From Flammeovirgaceae bacterium (GTDB lineage: Bacteria > Bacteroidota > Bacteroidia > Cytophagales > Cyclobacteriaceae): a stretch of 64,000 nucleotides of DNA. This document shows, piece by piece, positions 8,271-58,646 of the stretch. Both the position numbers and the translations under genes were made by a program. The DNA is taken from assembly GCA_027487845.1 (NCBI GenBank), contig JAIYCV010000042.1, positions 124,001 to 188,000 of the forward strand, given 5' to 3'. Below the pieces are notes generated by a model. That model had not been told where the DNA came from. It worked only from the letters and a program-made list of their open reading frames with translations, and did no database searches. The number at the start of each line of letters is the position of its first letter. The stretch's first letter is position 1.

Positions 8271-10370
8271 TCATTCTTTTATAAATTGCACTTGCTTTAT
8301 TTGTCTTCCCTGTTGTGCTTTTAACAGGTAGTTGCCAGTGGCTAAGTGAGACACCTCTATCAATAAATCACTGCCGCCTGTTGCTGATACTTTGTCCATT
8401 CTCCTTCCGGCAAGATCATAGATAAACACGTCAACACTTTTTCCTATATCAAAGCTGTTTAGCGACAACGTGAGTTTATCTTTTACTGGATTAGGAAACA
8501 AGGTAATCTCTTTGTTTGCGGTGGGCAGATCGCCTGTGATGACCATCTCAAAATCAGATAATGGCCTCGACCAAACCCCGCCTTCTAAAGTACCTGCAAA
8601 CAAGTCACTGCCGCTTACAATAAGTGATCGAACATGCGTATTGCCCAGCTTCGTCCCTGTTGTCACATTACTCCAGCTACCTCCATTGTTTGTGGAGAGT
8701 AATACCCCATCCCCATCAGTACCCGCGAACAGTTTACTGCCGCTCACCGCGAAAGATCGGATATACAAACTATTCCTGTTATCTGGCAGTCCAGTGTTCA
8801 CGGCATTCCAGCTGATGCCATTGTTGGTGGAGAGGAATATCCCGCCTCCATAAGTACCCGCAAAAATGTTGCTGCCGATCACCGCAAGGGAGTAAACATT
8901 CTTGTTACCCAGCCCCGTATTCACGGCACTCCAGCTGATGCCATTGTTAGTGGAGAGGAATATTCCGCTTCCATAAGCACCCACGAACAGGTTGCTGCCA
9001 CTTATCGTGAGGCAGTTAACATCCAAACTATTATCTGGTAGTCCCGTGTTCACGGCACTCCAGCTGCTGCCATTGTTGGTGGAAAGGTATACCCCGGCAT
9101 TAGTGCCCGCAAACAGGTTGCTGCCGCTCAATGCGAAGGATCGAATATTCATTCCATAATTGGCCAGTCCCGTGTTCACGGCATTCCAGCTTGAACCATT
9201 GTTGGTAGAAAGGTATACCCCACCATCGGGATAATAATAATCAGTGCCAGCGAAAATGTTGCTGCCGCTCGCCACGAGAGATCGAACATACAATCCATAA
9301 TTGGCAAGTCCTGTGTTCACTGCATTCCAGATAGATCCATTGTTGGTGGAGAGGTATGCCCCGTATTGAGTGCCAGCAAACAGGTTGCTGCCGCTAACCA
9401 ATAAGGAGCTAACAGACGGATAAATACTTCCCAGTCCAGTGTTTACGTCAATCCAGCTGTTGCCATTGTTGGTAGACAGGAACACTCCGCTATTAGTGCC
9501 CGCGAACAGGTTGCTGCCACTCACCAAGAGGGAGTAAACAGTCTTATTACCTAGCCCTATGTTAACGGCACTCCATCTGGTGCCATTGTTGGTGGAGAGG
9601 TAGACCCCACCACCAAAAAAGCCCGCAAACAGGTTGCTGCCACTCACCGCGAGGGAGAGAACAGAACCAGAAAAACCCTGCCCCGCGCTAGCGACACCCC
9701 AGCTGGCTCCATTGTTGGTGGAGAGGTATACCCTGTTTTGAGTGCCCGCAAACAGGTTGCTGCCGCTCACCGCAAGGGATTGAACATACATATTGGTCAG
9801 CCCGGTGTTCACGTCATTCCAGCTGGTGCCATTGTTAATTGAAAAGAACACCCCACCACCGTTAGTGCCTGCAAACAGGTTACTCCCATTCACCGCAAGG
9901 GAATTAACAAATTTATTTGTCAAGCCCGTGTTCACGGCTGTCCAACTAATACCATTATCGGTGGAAAGGAATACTCCGCTCCCATAGGTGCCAGCGAACA
10001 GGCTGCTGCCGCTCACCGCAAAAGAGATAACATCCATATTGGTCAGCCCCATGGCACTCCAGTTGGTGCCATTGTTGATGGAGAGGTATACCCCCTTATC
10101 AGTGCCCGCGAACAAGTTGCTGCCGCTCACCGCAAGGGATTGAACATGGGCATTACCCAGCCCAGTGTTCACGGCACTCCAGCTGGTGCCGTTGTTGTTG
10201 GAAAGGTATACTCCTCCCTCAGTGGCCGCGAACAGGTTGCTATTCATGGCGGCCAAAGCATAAATTTGAATTCTAATAGTCAGACCATTATTTTTTTCTA
10301 CCCATTGGGCGTGCAAGGGCAATACAAAAGCTACTAATAGAAATAAGGAACTGAGGATAAATCTTTTCAT
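8271..10370 (-). CDS. T9SS-secreted repeat protein, propeller-like
   Basis: A 699-residue secreted protein. It has a signal peptide (residues 1-21, ending LPLHAQ), about 14 tandem units of 38-47 residues with the core SGSNLFAGT-x-GGVYLSTNNGxSWxAVNTGL, and a C-terminal type IX secretion sorting domain starting at LFPNPVKDKLTL and ending QVQFIKE. The units resemble BNR/sialidase-type or two-component-regulator propeller blades, with an Asp-box-like STNNGxSW. The product is expected on the cell surface or released by T9SS. The repeats are conserved at DNA level too, so unit number may vary between strains. Ligand unknown. Confidence 0.88.
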   Translation of the reverse strand: MKRFILSSLFLLVAFVLPLHAQWVEKNNGLTIRIQIYALAAMNSNLFAATEGGVYLSNNNGTSWSAVNTGLGNAHVQSLAVSGSNLFAGTDKGVYLSINNGTNWSAMGLTNMDVISFAVSGSSLFAGTYGSGVFLSTDNGISWTAVNTGLTNKFVNSLAVNGSNLFAGTNGGGVFFSINNGTSWNDVNTGLTNMYVQSLAVSGSNLFAGTQNRVYLSTNNGASWGVASAGQGFSGSVLSLAVSGSNLFAGFFGGGVYLSTNNGTRWSAVNIGLGNKTVYSLLVSGSNLFAGTNSGVFLSTNNGNSWIDVNTGLGSIYPSVSSLLVSGSNLFAGTQYGAYLSTNNGSIWNAVNTGLANYGLYVRSLVASGSNIFAGTDYYYPDGGVYLSTNNGSSWNAVNTGLANYGMNIRSFALSGSNLFAGTNAGVYLSTNNGSSWSAVNTGLPDNSLDVNCLTISGSNLFVGAYGSGIFLSTNNGISWSAVNTGLGNKNVYSLAVIGSNIFAGTYGGGIFLSTNNGISWNAVNTGLPDNRNSLYIRSFAVSGSKLFAGTDGDGVLLSTNNGGSWSNVTTGTKLGNTHVRSLIVSGSDLFAGTLEGGVWSRPLSDFEMVITGDLPTANKEITLFPNPVKDKLTLSLNSFDIGKSVDVFIYDLAGRRMDKVSATGGSDLLIEVSHLATGNYLLKAQQGRQIKQVQFIKE
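8560..10300 (-). repeat. Tandem 120-140 bp coding repeats
   Basis: About 14 imperfect tandem units within the T9SS-exported protein gene, each encoding one SGSNLFAGT...WSAVNTGL blade. Conserved stretches such as the segment encoding STNNG recur in nearly every unit, which favours unequal recombination. Confidence 0.9.
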
Positions 10371-50729: not shown

Positions 50730-51734
50730 ATGTCAACAGCCAATTTTTATTTTTCTGCCGAGCCAGAGCCTCATCGCGTTCGCACCCTTCAAATTCTTAA
50801 GCAATATCCCGAAGTAAAGAAGCTCATGGGCAGAAACCCACTTACCATTTTCGCGATTATTGGTTTGGTAGGCGGAATGATCGGAATCTCTTATTTGGTG
50901 AAAGATTCTGCCTGGTGGCTGGTTCTTTTGGTGGCCTATGGCGTAGGTGCATTTTTCAATCATTCTTTGTTTGTAATGATCCACGAGTGTTCGCATCATT
51001 TGTTATTCAAAAACAAAACACTCAACAGGTTGGCCGCTATTGCATCTAACCTGCCCCACGTGTTTCCTTCGGCTATTTCCTTCGAACGCTACCATATCAA
51101 ACATCATTCTTTTCAAGGTGTGCACGAGCTAGATGCCGATTTGCCCGATTATTGGGAAGCTAAATTGATCCGTAACTCAACACTGGGCAAAGCATTCTGG
51201 TTATTGATATTTCCTGTTTTTCAGGTTATTCGCACATTTCGGTTGAGTGAAATAAAACCAGTTGATGGTTGGACGATCACCAATTGGGTTATTCAATTAA
51301 GCTTCAATGTTGCTATTTGGGTGTTCTTTGGCCCTAAGGCACTCATCTTTATGCTAGCTAGTTTTTTCTTTTCTGTGGGATTACATCCGCTTGGCGCGAG
51401 ATGGATTCAAGAACATTTTTTGACCATCGATGAAAATCAAGAAACGTATAGTTATTATGGCCCTCTTAATGCAGTTGCATTCAATGTAGGTTTCCACAAT
51501 GAACACCATGATTTTCCGTCCATTCCGTGGAACAGGCTGCCTCAGTTAAAAGCTAAGGCACCTGCTTTCTATGACACGCTCCACTCGCATAATTCATGGA
51601 CAAAGCTTTGGTTGCGCTTTTTGTTCGACAGCAAAATTTCCCTCTTCAGCCGCACCATGCGGAACGAACGCGGAAAAGTTGCCCTTACGGATGAGAGCAA
51701 GCCCGATATGGAGATGGCAACCCAGAAAGTCTAG
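50730..51734 (+). CDS. Sphingolipid delta-4-desaturase-like fatty acid desaturase
   Basis: A 334-residue membrane di-iron desaturase. Its histidine boxes are HECSHH, HIKHH and HNEHHDFPSIPW, and the block ETYSYYGPLN...FNVGFHNEHHDFP is nearly the same as in animal DEGS1, the dihydroceramide delta-4-desaturase. The N-terminal PHRVRTLQILKQYPEVKKLMG also matches the sphingolipid-delta4-desaturase N-terminal domain. It would add a 4,5-trans double bond to a sphingoid base in the inner membrane. Bacteroidota make dihydrosphingolipids, so a substrate is plausible. Spt or other sphingolipid genes are not in the window. The TTG at 50721 lies in the promoter and is not used. Confidence 0.82.
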   Translation: MSTANFYFSAEPEPHRVRTLQILKQYPEVKKLMGRNPLTIFAIIGLVGGMIGISYLVKDSAWWLVLLVAYGVGAFFNHSLFVMIHECSHHLLFKNKTLNRLAAIASNLPHVFPSAISFERYHIKHHSFQGVHELDADLPDYWEAKLIRNSTLGKAFWLLIFPVFQVIRTFRLSEIKPVDGWTITNWVIQLSFNVAIWVFFGPKALIFMLASFFFSVGLHPLGARWIQEHFLTIDENQETYSYYGPLNAVAFNVGFHNEHHDFPSIPWNRLPQLKAKAPAFYDTLHSHNSWTKLWLRFLFDSKISLFSRTMRNERGKVALTDESKPDMEMATQKV

Positions 51735-52147
51735 GAGATTAGAGATTTTAAAAATCCTTCGGCCGTCATTACCGGTAGTGGCGAACGTCTATAATCCTTT
51801 AGATTTCGTGTAATAATCACGGATGCTTTATTTTCTATTGCCGCATAATTTTGAACGCCATCTTCAAAGTCTGTAAAATTGGAAGCTAGTGCCAATTCGA
51901 CAGCTTTTTCACCCACATTCGCAATTTGGATCAACGCTTTTATTCTGGTTAATGCTTTTCTAGATTCCGTGTTGGAATACTTTTTTCTCAAAACATAATG
52001 GGCGTTGGTAAAACTAAGGGCGGAAATTAAAATAGTTATTTCCTTGCGGTCGGCCTTGGAAAATAGCTGAGCGGCACTTTTGTAAAATGGCTCACGCCTA
52101 TCTAATAAATCCAGCAAAATATCGGTATCGACAAAGGCTCGTTCCAT
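51731..52147 (-). CDS. PIN-domain toxin (VapC-like)
   Basis: A 138-residue PIN domain protein: FVDTDILLDLLDRREPF at residues 5-21, with Asp8 as the first acidic residue, an SFTNAHYVLR helix, and DFEDGVQNYAAIENKASVIITRNLKDY, carrying the later Asp/Glu and the final Asp. Predicted RNase toxin. It overlaps the antitoxin stop by one base (TAATG). Its TAG stop codon shares the CTAG tetramer with the stop codon of the convergent desaturase gene, so both genes end on the same four bases. Confidence 0.85.
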   Translation of the reverse strand: MERAFVDTDILLDLLDRREPFYKSAAQLFSKADRKEITILISALSFTNAHYVLRKKYSNTESRKALTRIKALIQIANVGEKAVELALASNFTDFEDGVQNYAAIENKASVIITRNLKDYRRSPLPVMTAEGFLKSLIS

Positions 52148-52383
52148 TATTTGTATTTCCTTTCAAGATAATCGGCATAACCCTTTTGATGATCTACTGA
52201 CTCTCCTTGTAAAATACCAGAAATACTTTTTACTAAAGGGGTAATTTCATCGTCATTGCCTTGAGTAATTTTATCTAAATAATTTTCTACCATTTTGGAA
52301 AGGCTCGTATTGCGCTTCTTGGCAAAGCCTTTCCCACGCTCAATAGTTTTTGTTTTAATGCGAAGCGTTAACTTTGTTTCCAT
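52147..52383 (-). CDS. Antitoxin, DUF6364-like
   Basis: A 78-residue protein with the N-terminal pattern of DUF6364-type antitoxins: KLTLRIKTKTIERGKGFAKKRNTSLSKMVENYL, a strand followed by two helices as in ribbon-helix-helix DNA-binding proteins. The C-terminal 30 residues would bind the PIN toxin. The -7 element lies 5 bases upstream of the start codon, so the pair is expressed from its own leaderless promoter, probably autorepressed; that regulation is inferred from the family. Confidence 0.8.
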   Translation of the reverse strand: METKLTLRIKTKTIERGKGFAKKRNTSLSKMVENYLDKITQGNDDEITPLVKSISGILQGESVDHQKGYADYLERKYK

Positions 52384-52562: not shown

Positions 52563-54542
52563 ATGAAATTCGTACGAAAAAAATATTCCGATAAAGTACT
52601 AAAACATCTTTACGAAGAATTGCTCAAACCCCGCTTAATCGAGGAGAAGATGCTCATTTTGTTGAGGCAAAACAAGATCAGTAAGTGGTTTAGCGGCATT
52701 GGTCAAGAGGCAATATCTGTAGGCATAGCCCAAGCGCTGGATTCGGACGATTATATTCTGCCCATGCACCGTAATCTGGGAGTCTTTACTAGCCGCAAAC
52801 TTCCCTTTGCGCGACTTTTTGCTCAGTGGCAAGGCACACCGAAAGGATATACAAAAGGCCGCGATCGTTCTTTCCATTTCGGAACCAATGAGCACCACAT
52901 TGTTGGAATGATTTCGCATTTGGGGCCTCAAAACGCAGTGGCCGATGGCATTGCTTTAGCCTCCAAAATAAAACAAGAAAAAAAGGTAACAGCAGTTTTT
53001 AATGGCGATGGAGGAACGAGCGAAGGTGATTTTCATGAAGCCATCAATGTGGCGGCCGTGTGGGATCTGCCTGTAATTTTTGTGATTGAAAATAATGGCT
53101 ACGGCCTTTCCACGCCTAGTAACGAGCAGTTCCGATGCAACTATTTTGTTGAGAAAGCCATTGGATATGGTATTGAAGGTGTTCAAGTAGATGGCAATAA
53201 TATTTTGGAAGTTTACGATGTGGTGAAATCAATTGCTGAAAGCATTCGTAAAAATCCGCGCCCGGTTTTGCTTGAGTGTCTTACTTTCCGGATGCGCGGC
53301 CATGAAGAAGCCTCGGGCACAAAGTACGTCCCGAAAGAGTTAATGGAAGAATGGGCAAAGAAAGACCCCATCGATAATTACGAAAATTATTTGTTGCAGG
53401 AAACGGTAATTGATGAGGCCTTTGTGGCCGACACGAGAGAAAGAATTAAAAAAGAAATTGAAGATGGTTTAGAGGAGGCGTTTCAGGAGACACATCCAGT
53501 GCCAGACACGGAAGAAGAACTGCAAGACGTGTATGCCCCTTTCATTCAAACAGTGGTTGAGCCTTACTCTGAAACAAAAATAGAAAAGCGATTTATTGAT
53601 GCCATCAGTGATGGCCTCCGTCAAAGTATGGAGCGTTTTCCCAATCTCGTATTGATGGGACAAGACATTGCGGAGTATGGCGGAGTGTTTAAAATCACGG
53701 ATGGCTTCGTTGAAAAATTTGGAAAAGACAGAGTTCGCAACACACCGATTTGTGAGTCTGCAATTGTTGGCGCGGGCTTAGGCCTTTCCATTAAAGGCAT
53801 GAAAGCCATGGTAGAAATGCAGTTTGCTGATTTTGTAACCGAAGGCTTCAATCAAATTATTAACAACTTAGCGAAAACACATTGGCGTTGGGGGCAATGT
53901 GCCGATGTGGTGGTGCGCATGCCAACCGGTGCCGGCACTGCCGCAGGCCCCTTCCATAGCCAGAGCAACGAAGCTTGGTTCTTTCACACGCCTGGGTTGA
54001 AAATCGTATATCCCTCCAACCCATATGACGCCAAGGGACTGTTGAATGCCGCGTTAGAAGACCCAAACCCTTACCTGTATTTTGAACATAAGGTGCTTTA
54101 TCGATCTGTTAAGGAGAGCATTCCGGAAGATTATTATACCATCGAAATCGGAAAAGCAAATTTAACAAGAGAAGGCAACAGCTTTTCGATCATCACCTAC
54201 GGTATGGGAGTGCACTGGGCAAAAGAAATTCTAGACACAATGCCAGAAGTAAGTGCCGATGTACTTGATCTAAGAACGCTTTTACCTTGGGATAAAAAGG
54301 CAGTCGAGGCTACAGTTCAAAAGACAAATCGAGTTCTTATTCTCCATGAAGACACGCTAACCGGAGGTATTGGGGCTGAAATTGCCGCTTGGATAAGCGA
54401 ACACTGCTTTGAATATTTAGACGCTCCCGTCATGCGGGTGGCCAGCTTGGATACGGCAATTCCATTTGCCCCTACACTTGAAAATAATTTCCTGCCAAAA
54501 GGAAGATTAAAGGAAAGGATAGAAGAATTGTTAAGGTATTGA
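52563..54542 (+). CDS. 2-oxoacid dehydrogenase E1, fused alpha and beta subunits
   Basis: A thiamine-diphosphate enzyme of the pyruvate or branched-chain 2-oxoacid dehydrogenase complex; 659 residues. The alpha half (1-320) has the TPP motif GDGGTSEGDFHEAINVAAVWDLPVIFVIENN. The beta half (from about 340) has LMGQDIAEYGGVFKITDGF, RNTPICESAIVGAGLGLS and a C-terminal transketolase domain (DVLDLRTLLPWDKKAVEATV). Separate subunits are the usual arrangement; the fused form is found in many Bacteroidota. E2 and E3 genes are not adjacent. The exact oxoacid cannot be told from sequence alone. Confidence 0.92.
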   Translation: MKFVRKKYSDKVLKHLYEELLKPRLIEEKMLILLRQNKISKWFSGIGQEAISVGIAQALDSDDYILPMHRNLGVFTSRKLPFARLFAQWQGTPKGYTKGRDRSFHFGTNEHHIVGMISHLGPQNAVADGIALASKIKQEKKVTAVFNGDGGTSEGDFHEAINVAAVWDLPVIFVIENNGYGLSTPSNEQFRCNYFVEKAIGYGIEGVQVDGNNILEVYDVVKSIAESIRKNPRPVLLECLTFRMRGHEEASGTKYVPKELMEEWAKKDPIDNYENYLLQETVIDEAFVADTRERIKKEIEDGLEEAFQETHPVPDTEEELQDVYAPFIQTVVEPYSETKIEKRFIDAISDGLRQSMERFPNLVLMGQDIAEYGGVFKITDGFVEKFGKDRVRNTPICESAIVGAGLGLSIKGMKAMVEMQFADFVTEGFNQIINNLAKTHWRWGQCADVVVRMPTGAGTAAGPFHSQSNEAWFFHTPGLKIVYPSNPYDAKGLLNAALEDPNPYLYFEHKVLYRSVKESIPEDYYTIEIGKANLTREGNSFSIITYGMGVHWAKEILDTMPEVSADVLDLRTLLPWDKKAVEATVQKTNRVLILHEDTLTGGIGAEIAAWISEHCFEYLDAPVMRVASLDTAIPFAPTLENNFLPKGRLKERIEELLRY

Positions 54543-54614
54543 TAGTAATTCGAAAAATTTAGCGTTTTAAGCCTTCAACTATTTATATTACCTTAGCTTG
54601 ATTAAAGTAGCGTT

Positions 54615-57089
54615 TTGACCAATCAAACAAACAATAAGGCAGTTGTCGTTATCCTTAGATGGAGATTTTTCCCTCTATTGTTAGTTGCTTTCTTACTTTC
54701 ATTTCACGCTTTCGCTCAAAACACCAAAGGAGATCGCCCTGTTTCTAACCAAGAACAGATTAAAGAATCCAAAGCTCGATTGAAAGTTCAAAAGAAAACC
54801 CGTAGAGCGAATCAAAAAGCTTCCAAGCGAATACCAGGGGGATCGTCTTCTTATAAGGCCAACAATAACCTTTATCAAGGGCGAAATTTTAAGAATACCG
54901 ATCGACCAGCCAAGCCCATTGGGCCGATTTTTAGTTACACTCCAAACGAAGGCCGAAGCAAGGCTTGGAAAGGTGATATTAGAGGAGAGAAATTGAGAAC
55001 GAAAAAAGAGGCATTAAAGAATTCAGGCAAAAAAGTAATTGTTTACCCACAGCCAACCGAATATAAGAAATACTTAGCTAAAAAATCAAAAAAAGGAGAA
55101 AAGCCATGGAAAGGCGATGCCCAAGGTAACCCGATCGTCAAACGCGTTCCTAGTAAAGCATCAACCCAATATTTGTCTCTACAAGACGGTGGCTTCTCCT
55201 CAGGGTTCGCTCGCAGTAAGAACAAAGAATCGGGAAAGTATCAGGCTTATAGCGAATCTGGAACCATAAAAAATGTTTTCCCATTATCCAGGTTTCCACT
55301 GTCGCGTCCACGGAAAAAAAGGAAAGAATTTGGAGACTATCAGGCATTTGGTGAATCTGGCGGGCGCAAAAGCAAGTTTTCTCAGCAGCCACTTGGCTAC
55401 CAATCCGAAGAATCAAAGGCAAAGATTAGAACAGCGTCAGGGGAGCTACCTATACAAATATTCCCGCGGGCCTCAGAAAGATTCCAAAAGCCACAAGGGC
55501 CTTTTGGAAATGCTTCTTCAATTCCCCACTCCTTTGTAACGAGAGGGAGAAAGAACGTGTATTGGGGTAAATTTAGGAAAGGGGAAAAACCTTTTTTGAC
55601 AGATCTTGCTGGGTTTTCAATAAGGCGTAAGAATTACAAAAGTGGCTTACCACCCATTACACTTCAGGAAAATCTGTTTAATAGGAGAAGTACCAAAAAT
55701 AAACCTTATCTCGGAGATGGTGGAATTCCATCTGGAAACAAAAGAGATAATGCTTGGCTGGGTGATCTCAGTGGTCAAAAAATTAGATTTAAAAAGTTTA
55801 GGGATATTGAAAAGGTAGGTTTTAATCCAGACGTGACAGCAGCAACTAACTACAAAAAAAATATTCGCCTAGCCCCTGGCGCAAGGTCGATTAGCGGCAG
55901 CAGAGGTGCAGGTAGCCAACTTCCTTCAAATAGTAAAGTTGGGATAGGAAGTAATTTTAGTGGATGGACTAAAACACGCAGGCCGCTCAAAGGTGGAGGA
56001 AGCATCAGTGGAAAGACCTGGAACAATAAGAATAATCCGGTAACCGATCGTTTTTCAATTGGTCGGGATCTATCACATAGTTATTCGGGTTTTATAAAAG
56101 GAGTGTACGAAAAGCCAGGACCAGGAACTCCAGGGGCTAATTTTAGCGGAAACGTAAAGGCAATAAAACGCGAAAAAGGCGGAGAAAGCATTAGCGGAAT
56201 AACATGGAATAACTATGGAAAATCAATTTCCCACCAACGACCCCATGCCTACCAAGGCTATGATTTCTCGGGCATTACAAAAGCAGAAAAACCGAGAGTA
56301 GGAGGTCAAAGCATAAGTGGCCGTTTGTGGAATAATTTCGAGGAACCAATTGCAAGAAAGCGCAATCACGCCTACCAAGGGTATGATTTTGCAGGGAATG
56401 TGAAAGCAACTAAACCAAAAATTGGAGGGCAGAGCATAAGTGGCAGGTTATGGAACAACTTTGAAAAGCCAATTGCAAGCGTATATGCAAGAAACCCTAG
56501 GATGAGCGTAGCCACTTCAGGAAAGATAAAGCAGCGCGAGTACATTCAGCATCCGAAAGCCAACATTGCTTCTGTAAAAAAGGTACGCCCGCTGCCTAGC
56601 GCATTGGCGGTGGCTGCCATAAAATCAAAAATGAAGCAGGGTAACTATCAACGTAAACCAAAAGGAGTTGAAAATGCGCTGCTCGGGCTAGGACCAGGGA
56701 AGAACACCGTCAGAGCTAGCTTATTTGCGGGTAAAACAAAACTGAAACGCGAATACGTCCATAATCCAAAAAGTGCAGCGCTTGCGCTAAAAGTATTATC
56801 TCAGCCAAAATCATATGCAAAAATGGCGGACTTCCAAGGGAATTTGAAAATGAGGAAAGCATCACATAAAAACACTCATCCAGATGCTCGTTTCGCCCAC
56901 TTAAAAGAAAATAATACAAAAGATGAACGAACTTTTCTAACTAATATCAAGTTGGCTTGGGCAAAGATGTTTAGGAAAAACGAAATACAGCCAGCTGCCG
57001 CAAAACCAAAGGAACACCCGCTGAGATACGATAGAAAAGAGAAGGACTTATGGAAGCCTTTATATGACTATAATGAGTTGAAAAAATGA
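54615..57089 (+). CDS. Large basic exported repeat protein, unknown function
   Basis: An 824-residue protein I do not recognise as a named family. The most plausible start is TTG 54615, giving a signal peptide up to about residue 35 (LLLVAFLLSFHAFAQ). The mature part is very rich in Lys, Arg, Gly, Asn and Ser. Units of the form KAWKGDIRG, KPWKGDAQG, KPFLTDLAG and NAWLGDLSG occur between residues 115 and 390. Four GG-x-SISG-xx-WNN units start at residues 460, 522, 563 and 604, alternating with HAYQGYDFSG. The C terminus ends LWKPLYDYNELKK. It overlaps ytxJ by four bases. A structural, wall- or matrix-associated role is possible but unproven. Confidence 0.7.
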   Translation: MTNQTNNKAVVVILRWRFFPLLLVAFLLSFHAFAQNTKGDRPVSNQEQIKESKARLKVQKKTRRANQKASKRIPGGSSSYKANNNLYQGRNFKNTDRPAKPIGPIFSYTPNEGRSKAWKGDIRGEKLRTKKEALKNSGKKVIVYPQPTEYKKYLAKKSKKGEKPWKGDAQGNPIVKRVPSKASTQYLSLQDGGFSSGFARSKNKESGKYQAYSESGTIKNVFPLSRFPLSRPRKKRKEFGDYQAFGESGGRKSKFSQQPLGYQSEESKAKIRTASGELPIQIFPRASERFQKPQGPFGNASSIPHSFVTRGRKNVYWGKFRKGEKPFLTDLAGFSIRRKNYKSGLPPITLQENLFNRRSTKNKPYLGDGGIPSGNKRDNAWLGDLSGQKIRFKKFRDIEKVGFNPDVTAATNYKKNIRLAPGARSISGSRGAGSQLPSNSKVGIGSNFSGWTKTRRPLKGGGSISGKTWNNKNNPVTDRFSIGRDLSHSYSGFIKGVYEKPGPGTPGANFSGNVKAIKREKGGESISGITWNNYGKSISHQRPHAYQGYDFSGITKAEKPRVGGQSISGRLWNNFEEPIARKRNHAYQGYDFAGNVKATKPKIGGQSISGRLWNNFEKPIASVYARNPRMSVATSGKIKQREYIQHPKANIASVKKVRPLPSALAVAAIKSKMKQGNYQRKPKGVENALLGLGPGKNTVRASLFAGKTKLKREYVHNPKSAALALKVLSQPKSYAKMADFQGNLKMRKASHKNTHPDARFAHLKENNTKDERTFLTNIKLAWAKMFRKNEIQPAAAKPKEHPLRYDRKEKDLWKPLYDYNELKK
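55992..56463 (+). repeat. Internal coding repeats of the basic exported protein
   Basis: Four units encoding GG-x-SISG-xx-WNN with spacings of 62, 41 and 41 residues; the last two are about 123 bases apart and very similar in DNA sequence, indicating recent duplication. Confidence 0.85.
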
Positions 57090-57451
57090 CGTGGAACGAA
57101 CTTACCAGTATAGACCAGCTAGATCAACTAGTGGACGAGTCCAAAGAACGGCCTGTTTTGATTTTCAAGCACAGTACCAGGTGTTCTATTAGCAGCACTT
57201 CGCTGGGCAGGCTGGAACGCAATTGGAAGTTAGAAGAAGTGGGGGCGTTGAAGCCTTATTACCTTGATCTAATTTCGTTTCGAGAAGTTTCTAATTTGAT
57301 TGCTCAAAAATTTGAAGTTGAACACCAATCGCCCCAAATACTTATTATTGAAAACGGAAAATGTGTTTTTGACCGATCTCACCTCGAAATTGATTACGCT
57401 TCTATCAAAAATCGTTTGTTAGCATTTCAGAAATCAAAAGTTACCGTTTGA
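57086..57451 (+). CDS. ytxJ: YtxJ-family bacillithiol-linked redox protein
   Basis: A 121-residue thioredoxin-fold protein of the YtxJ (DUF2847) family: VLIFKHSTRCSISSTSL, where the single Cys sits at the CxxC position with Ser as the fourth residue, and the cis-Pro region HQSPQILIIENG. It is thought to be a monothiol bacilliredoxin. Firmicutes and some Bacteroidota make bacillithiol. It begins inside the stop of the basic repeat protein gene (ATGA), so the two are translated together. Its 3' end overlaps the convergent osmC gene by 25 bases. Confidence 0.87.
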   Translation: MTWNELTSIDQLDQLVDESKERPVLIFKHSTRCSISSTSLGRLERNWKLEEVGALKPYYLDLISFREVSNLIAQKFEVEHQSPQILIIENGKCVFDRSHLEIDYASIKNRLLAFQKSKVTV

Positions 57452-57831
57452 GTTAAAGAATCTGATAAACTAAGGGCAACAGGGCAAGTTAACGCTGCTC
57501 GTTTAAGTTTTTCCTTTTGGTCGCTGGTAGCATTCAAGCCCGAATGAGTAAACGCAATCTGAACTTCCTTCACTTTTCTTGGGTTTTCTGCCATCACTTT
57601 TACAACGTCCGCTTTCAATCCTTTCAGGTCAATTTTTTCTCTTTCTGCTAATATCCCCATAATGGTCATCATGCAACTGCATAAAGCGGAACAAAGCAGA
57701 TCAGTAGGACTGAAGGCTTCCCCTTTGCCATTATTATCAGGAGGGGCATCGGTTAAAATTGTATTTCCTGATCGTGCGTGAACTGCCTGCGTGCGCAATG
57801 AGCCAAGGTATTCGGATGATATTGTTGCCAT
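57427..57831 (-). CDS. osmC: OsmC-family peroxiredoxin-like protein
   Basis: A 134-residue OsmC/Ohr-type protein that reduces organic peroxides or acts on related substrates. It shows the conserved SPTDLLCSALCSCMMTIM, with Cys near residue 47-50 as the peroxidatic thiol, and the second Cys in LTCPVALSL near residue 113. The family forms intertwined dimers. It overlaps the ytxJ 3' end in the convergent direction. Whether it belongs to OsmC or YhfA subtype is unclear. Confidence 0.88.
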   Translation of the reverse strand: MATISSEYLGSLRTQAVHARSGNTILTDAPPDNNGKGEAFSPTDLLCSALCSCMMTIMGILAEREKIDLKGLKADVVKVMAENPRKVKEVQIAFTHSGLNATSDQKEKLKRAALTCPVALSLSDSLTQTVTFDF

Positions 57832-57908
57832 TGGGGTTAAACTAAAGATTTAAATTTTGCGTTGTGGTATTTGATTTTGGTTTAAATTTATCCAAAGTTT
57901 TAGTAACC

Positions 57909-58646
57909 ATGTTGGTTTCAAAAAAGATTGTAACAGCGTTTTTTTTATTTATGAGCTTCAGCAGTTGGGCTCAAACTCAAGATAGCTATGATTATGATTC
58001 TGAGTTTACGTGGGGGATCAACAAAAATTCTTCTGGTGGTTTAATTGGCGGCTTTGTTTTCAAAAAAGCAAGAAAACTTTCTAATAGGAATATTTTAGAG
58101 ACTTATGGTCTTGAAATTATGAACGTCAAAAATCCCGAGGAGATAAGGTATCCATCCTCGAGAACGGGCAATTATTTCATTTATGGAAAAACGAACTATC
58201 TGTATGCCCTTCGACTACAATATGGCCGAGATTTCATTTTCTTTAAAAAAGCGCCACAACAAGGAGTTGAAATAAAAGCAGTGCTCGCGGCTGGTCCTTC
58301 GTTTGGCATTTTAGCCCCTTACTATATTGAAAGATCCGTAGATAATAGCCGATTTCTTTCCGTAACCGAGCAATATGATCCAAATAATCCAAGGCATCAA
58401 TTTAGCAACATACTAGGCACGGGCGGTCTATTTCAAGGTATTGGTGATTCAAAAATACAATTGGGTGGAAATGCCAAGTTGGCGCTCAACTTTGAACTAG
58501 GAACCATTAAAAGTCAAGTCACAGGCTTTGAAGTTGGCTTTTTAGTGGACGCCTACTTTAATGAAATAATATTGATGCCTGCCGCTCCTAACAATGCGGT
58601 CTTTCCAACAATTTTTTTCACGCTCTTCTACGGAAGTCGTAAATAG
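57909..58646 (+). CDS. Outer-membrane beta-barrel-like exported protein, unknown
   Basis: A 245-residue protein. The ATG at 57909 puts a signal peptide (VSKKIVTAFFLFMSFSSWAQ) at the N terminus; the longer frame from 57864 does not. The rest alternates polar and hydrophobic residues with aromatic strand ends (YGKTNYLYALRLQYGRDFIFF, FFTLFYGSRK) like a small barrel. The last residues end in a basic KR-type pattern rather than the usual C-terminal aromatic. No family recognised. It abuts the convergent chrA gene with no gap. Confidence 0.65.
   Translation: MLVSKKIVTAFFLFMSFSSWAQTQDSYDYDSEFTWGINKNSSGGLIGGFVFKKARKLSNRNILETYGLEIMNVKNPEEIRYPSSRTGNYFIYGKTNYLYALRLQYGRDFIFFKKAPQQGVEIKAVLAAGPSFGILAPYYIERSVDNSRFLSVTEQYDPNNPRHQFSNILGTGGLFQGIGDSKIQLGGNAKLALNFELGTIKSQVTGFEVGFLVDAYFNEIILMPAAPNNAVFPTIFFTLFYGSRK

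Follow-up and report, generated by a model that had tools for sequence, protein, structure and literature searches.

The window, that is, the whole 64,000-nucleotide stretch of DNA that was analysed, encodes an exported, strongly basic protein of 824 residues with internal repeats (hereafter the repeat protein), which is a real and probably useful part of the cell envelope, preserved under selection. The computation shows a basic chain with repeats, an N-terminus resembling a signal peptide and a conserved C-terminal module, whose gene is single-copy, occurs in much of the order, is under purifying selection and lies in a conserved operon; all beyond "exported, basic and conserved" is what we infer from these properties. 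The most economical account, which we tentatively propose, is that it is a Sec-exported, disordered, multivalent polycation, tethered at its C-terminus and binding anionic polymers of the envelope. The gene and its parts lie in the window as follows.

54615 to 57089, forward strand: exported polycationic repeat protein, 824 aa, TTG start, stop codon included; supported by relatives and purifying selection
54615 to 54719, forward strand: signal peptide, residues 1-35, cleaved presumably after AFAQ; hydrophobic core, aligned in relatives
55551 to 55586, forward strand: KNVYWGKF...E motif (residues 313-324), holding the longest stretch of invariant columns among the 22 aligned rows
55992 to 56489, forward strand: GG-x-SISG-x-x-WNN repeat region, residues 460-625, ending in two tandem 41-residue units
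56244 to 56366 and 56367 to 56489, forward strand: the two tandem 41-residue (123-base) units, from comparison of the units
56787 to 57086, forward strand: conserved C-terminal module, last 100 residues, with an [LP]-R-Y-D-x-x-E-x-x-L-W tail; seen in alignments A1 and A2, the tail also in relatives

An earlier note, made from the letters of the window and a list of its ORFs, had described an 824-residue ORF with a signal peptide, and both are upheld: a hydrophobic core is followed by AFAQ and, past the likely cleavage site, by NTKGD. Residues 7-30 form a helix in the AlphaFold model, and QNTKGD[KR]P is present in 19 of the 22 rows of the alignment, one of the remaining three being without its N-terminus. 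No ATG occurs in the frame of the repeat gene between the upstream stop and the hydrophobic core, so that a non-ATG start is needed. Of 66 relatives, 65 have such a core, and 36 of these, including 14 of 19 among loci L021-L046, likewise offer no ATG before it. For comparison, 12 of 52 genes for a neighbouring small barrel protein also have no ATG before their hydrophobic peak, some of these non-ATG starts looking real and others reflecting a misplaced peak; non-ATG starts are not special to the repeat gene.

The mature part of the repeat protein contains 13.6% Lys, 7.2% Arg and 9.8% Gly and has a net charge of +108. Lys plus Arg come to 20% and Asn to 6.7%, the pI is about 10.5, and Cys is absent. 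The extreme Lys/Arg/Asn content claimed in the earlier note therefore applies to Lys and Arg, Asn being modest. The repeat classes named there are all present, with three copies of W-x-GD-x-x-G, four of GG-x-SISG-x-x-WN and two of HAYQGYDF. The two 123-base units had been called almost alike and the product of a recent internal duplication; they share only 85 of 123 bases and 30 of 41 residues, the best 113 bases match at 75%, and synonymous sites between them are saturated (pS 0.78). As residues are kept while synonymous sites are saturated, the duplication is old, and a recent origin is rejected. In the 22-row alignment, the KNVYWGKF...E motif comprises the invariant columns K313-F320 and E324, and the number and spacing of repeats vary widely between more distant relatives. 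Elsewhere in the window, about 12 copies of a 123-base unit occur at 8787-10241, inside a 699-residue ORF on the minus strand (8271-10370).

The chemistry of the protein is shared by its relatives. In a set of 70 (185-1100 aa, some cut by contig ends, close relatives included), net charge ranges from +13 to +197 and Lys plus Arg from 18 to 34%, and 66 are without Cys past the first 45 codons. The count of [FWY]xG[DN] is above that of all 300 shuffles in 44 of the 70, and many distant relatives have one copy of the motif or none. The C-terminal module has the consensus HPSxxY .. W-x-K-L-F-K .. RYDxxExxLW; in 64 of the 70, the last 60 residues hold a tail of Glu, 1-3 residues and Trp (in a pattern that also permits Ala for Glu), and the remaining six, judged by eye, end in E-x-x-I-W.

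Searches of known families agree with the earlier statement that no domain is recognisable. Pfam gave no match at E<=1, NCBIfam gave only H-NS at E 0.19, far under its cut-off, PHROGs gave a single unknown family (E 0.0012) for which no individual stretch passed, and the best PDB values (0.14 by profile, 0.31 by protein) indicate no relative there. Among those relatives tested, nothing stood above a curated cut-off; below it were L022 against an acylphosphatase model (6e-11, 42.5 bits where the cut-off is 86, no stretch, lying on the repeats) and L074 against DUF2635 (0.013). Neither Pfam nor NCBIfam matched a T9SS C-terminal sorting domain or other surface-anchoring family in the repeat protein, and no lipobox Cys follows its signal peptide. 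The family is without a name in the databases searched, and none of the open-access titles consulted was devoted to it. The structure prediction that the earlier note recommended returned no fold: AlphaFold modelled the full protein with isolated short strands only (pLDDT 41.7, pTM 0.21), from an alignment of 22 rows, too shallow for the low confidence to establish disorder. The balance of charge and hydropathy is that of a disordered chain, and by this computation together with the lack of a confident fold from a shallow alignment, the protein is probably largely disordered.

Within the window's family, the whole protein used as query matched 32 of 98 genomes. Profile A1, built from the final 100 residues, found 59 of 96 family genomes, with one match each, and 43 of 194 genomes of the order; a broader profile (A2) found 71 of the 194, and it is through the C-terminal part that relatives across the order were found. 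Weak A2 matches in families f15 and f19 (7e-9 to 7e-4) may include false ones: neither of two f19 loci inspected is backed by synteny, and at one of two f15 loci the small upstream ORF is all that is shared. The class sample and the phylum sample each gave 4 matches in 247, the same four genomes, all in the window's own family, so that in these samples sequence searches place the repeat protein only inside the order. Named relatives belong to Cyclobacteriaceae, Flammeovirgaceae, Cytophagales or unclassified Bacteroidetes/Bacteroidia. Among the 96 family genomes, 29 gave no relative: A1 missed 37, and eight divergent copies were recovered through their position, with E-values from a small set searched without filtering. 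The gene is thus dispensable in some lineages.

Where the gene is present, it is constrained. The proteins of loci L028 and L035 are 92% identical in a gapless alignment of 910 residues, with dS 1.49, dN 0.053 and a ratio of 0.035 that is much alike in the N-terminal, middle and C-terminal parts. Other close pairs gave 0.036, 0.027, 0.071 and, for L034/L041, 0.163 (0.206 in its middle part); these are simple Nei-Gojobori counts in which dS is high or saturated in several pairs, and the pair of L021 and the window was not computable. The range of 0.027 to 0.163 over five close pairs does not support the fast change proposed earlier, although over greater distances the number of repeats does change. 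In four of the five pairs the repeat protein is more alike than ytxJ, the gene just downstream, read from its own start (92/75, 86/77, 87/78 and 78/76% identity), with the reverse in one (86/89%). In L028/L035, where the barrel neighbour is 94% and the upstream E1 98% identical, the repeat protein at 92% stands between its neighbours, given the 75% of ytxJ.

Upstream of the gene lies a further conserved feature.

54589 to 54602, forward strand: promoter-like conserved element TAnnTTAGC, 26 bases 5' of the start codon; conserved in relatives, promoter role putative

TAnnTTAGC is found 26-52 bases 5' of the first in-frame start in 23 of 29 relatives, a set that, like the 70 above, includes close relatives, several of the 23 being closely related. 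Among 1581 plus-strand stretches of 180 bases from L021-L046, a background that counts those of the element itself, 26 have it, and the whole window holds 4 copies where 9 are expected. In the stretch 54589-54617, and at the same place in relatives among L001-L046, TAnnTTAGC(CTGTT) stands together with a non-ATG start (TTG in the window). TAnnTTAGC is a candidate promoter, and with the non-ATG start it may point to weak initiation, a very short leader and a promoter of a special kind.

The gene sits in a block with the following neighbours.

52563 to 54542, forward strand: 2-oxoacid dehydrogenase E1, conserved upstream neighbour (Pfam, synteny)
57086 to 57451, forward strand: ytxJ / brxC, monothiol bacilliredoxin with an HSTRCSIS segment (PF11009 3.4e-37, TIGR04019 1e-37), overlapping the repeat gene by 4 bases
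57427 to 57831, reverse strand: OsmC-like gene, conserved downstream neighbour (Pfam, synteny)
57864 to 58646, forward strand: small outer-membrane beta-barrel, conserved downstream neighbour of no Pfam family, first in-frame ATG at 57909 (AlphaFold, Foldseek)

Close relatives usually show E1 first, then the repeat gene and ytxJ, followed by OsmC on the other strand and the small barrel. Among 40 wider loci, E1 is upstream in 24, directly or with one small ORF between, and ytxJ is directly downstream in 25 (23 at the loci themselves, plus L130 and L166, seen in their genomes); IspF, an M16 peptidase and lipoyl synthase surround the repeat gene in many loci, the Pfam names being taken from one locus. 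The repeat gene and ytxJ are part of a gene block kept across several families. Also in this region, at 51731-52383 on the minus strand, is a PIN-domain gene (PIN_3) preceded by a small gene, the two probably forming a toxin-antitoxin pair of the VapBC kind; a relative of the PIN gene is at the same place in three other loci.

The barrel (AlphaFold pLDDT 73) resembles small barrels of the OmpX/OmpA kind, with OmpX 1qj9 as the best Foldseek match at a weak E of 1.4e-3 and NspA and OmpA near; this likeness concerns the neighbour only. It occurs in 93 of 96 family genomes, including genomes where the repeat gene was not found, and so is not a dedicated partner of the repeat protein; an obligate partnership of the two is rejected. 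Of 25 loci from other families, 15 have a small lipoprotein-like ORF, its tail basic, immediately 5' of the repeat gene; the 15 loci from the window's family showed none, in a listing of ORFs of at least 90 codons that covered all 40. Pfam matched nothing in three such ORFs tested, and NCBIfam gave matches in two, both sub-threshold. Examples, each just upstream of the repeat gene, are:

L136, 5318 to 5632: small lipoprotein-like ORF
L138, 5122 to 5409: small lipoprotein-like ORF
L142, 5324 to 5614: small lipoprotein-like ORF
L143, 7029 to 7433: small lipoprotein-like ORF

The closest neighbour is ytxJ, whose ATG at 57086 lies, as had been noted earlier, inside the ATGA that holds the stop of the repeat gene. 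L021, the nearest relative in the alignment, has this overlap too; in most other relatives a short gap separates the two genes. The likeness to BrxC/YtxJ monothiol bacilliredoxins, a near full-length match above cut-off to PF11009 and TIGR04019, holds for ytxJ and not for the repeat protein. YtxJ has a BrxC domain, a single Cys in the HSTRCSIS segment, which we take to be the active site, and by sequence no signal peptide. The placing of an exported protein beside a cytosolic thiol protein, which had seemed odd, is real and is not unique to this strain: in 50 of the 59 family carriers ytxJ is directly downstream on the same strand, with 6 to 287 bases between profile matches, while ytxJ was not found in six and is elsewhere in three (one by a weak match). 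PF11009 occurs in 86 of 96 family genomes. From 33 genomes with ytxJ and no A1 match, 34 ytxJ regions were inspected, and ytxJ was missed by ORF picking in three; among the remaining 31, ytxJ directly follows a very divergent relative with a similar type of C-terminal tail in eight, L174 has E1 and then ytxJ at once, and 22 have other neighbours. With carriers lacking ytxJ and ytxJ occurring without the repeat gene, the pairing is old but each gene can live alone, and it looks like shared operon history rather than joint chemistry.

These data bear unequally on the possible roles. A functional link to the bacilliredoxin, with the repeat protein as its partner or substrate and, for example, protected at thiols in the envelope, is very improbable: the frequent pairing and the eight divergent copies that also precede ytxJ fit such a role, but YtxJ lacks a signal peptide and many genomes carry ytxJ without the repeat gene. 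As six carriers have no ytxJ and 66 of 70 relatives no Cys, YtxJ looks like an operon neighbour and not a redox partner, and the repeat protein as its substrate is rejected. A place in type 9 secretion or the gliding machinery is improbable as well; the setting is specific to the same phylum and the location is presumably the envelope, but SprA occurs in 95 of the 96 family genomes, whether or not the repeat gene is present, and the one without it is 52% complete; the repeat gene is therefore not needed for the core T9SS and is rejected as a core part of it. The chance that the gene is a low-complexity ORF arisen by accident, or an annotation artefact, is negligible, since the low-complexity composition and TTG start that might suggest it are outweighed by the dN/dS values of all five close pairs, homologues through the order and a conserved operon, which refute it.

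The remaining alternatives concern what an envelope protein of this kind would do. The earlier note pointed to surface or matrix proteins, and a surface-exposed or extracellular matrix or adhesion protein would stick cells to surfaces, eDNA or polysaccharide; the repeats of the protein, its polycationic composition, signal peptide and the variable repeat number between more distant relatives are in keeping with this, but the lack of a match to a T9SS C-terminal domain or surface-anchoring family and a dN/dS in close pairs that is low, unlike that of diversifying surface proteins, leave it possible yet doubtful. Rather unlikely is an ordered repeat protein, a beta-rich fibre or sleeve assembling in the envelope, for which AlphaFold would have failed for lack of alignment depth. 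The gapless L028/L035 alignment and the conserved Gly, Trp and Asn of the 41-residue unit argue for it, and constraint of this strength is unusual for a disordered chain, so that prediction could have missed an ordered repeat fold; the low pLDDT (42) and pTM and the wide variation of copy number and spacing argue against it.

In the multivalent tether that we tentatively prefer, the C-terminal module would fasten the chain to a partner located at the outer membrane or close to it, and the repeated aromatic-x-G-D/N and GGGS-I-SG-x-x-WNN units, set in Lys/Arg-rich spacers, would bind at many sites to anionic polymers, be these LPS phosphates, peptidoglycan or exopolysaccharide, so that the chain may act as an electrostatic tether or glue. 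Here ytxJ would be co-transcribed through shared ancestry of the gene block, with no action on the repeat protein. Charge, disorder, the aromatic motif, the C-terminal profile, low dN/dS, envelope neighbours and the six ytxJ-less carriers count for the tether; the shallow alignment behind the AlphaFold model, a constraint unusual for a disordered chain, the rarity of the aromatic motif in distant relatives, a barrel that is not dedicated, the lipoprotein-like ORF at none of 15 loci in the window's family and the 29 family genomes that gave no relative count against it. Lys/Tyr/Gly-rich disordered adhesive or matrix proteins, for example those with mussel-foot-like repeats, form a protein type that is likewise polycationic, with aromatic-Gly motifs, tandem units and low predicted order; the repeat protein differs in being bacterial and constrained and in having a conserved C-terminal module, and the likeness is one of general features.

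More broadly, and with considerable doubt, it is conceivable that many Cytophagales carry a disordered yet constrained polycation of up to about 1100 residues that serves as a multivalent envelope tether with a C-terminal dock, a lineage-specific protein of no named counterpart, whose gene has an upstream element that is conserved and starts, in the clade of the window, with a conserved non-ATG codon. The pairing with ytxJ is a warning against inferring shared chemistry from a conserved operon. The combination of low complexity and strong constraint makes the family a good case for studying sequence conservation in apparently disordered bacterial proteins, and an old, single-copy, selected envelope protein family that is spread through much of one order and unnamed in the libraries searched marks a gap in the knowledge of how the envelope is built.
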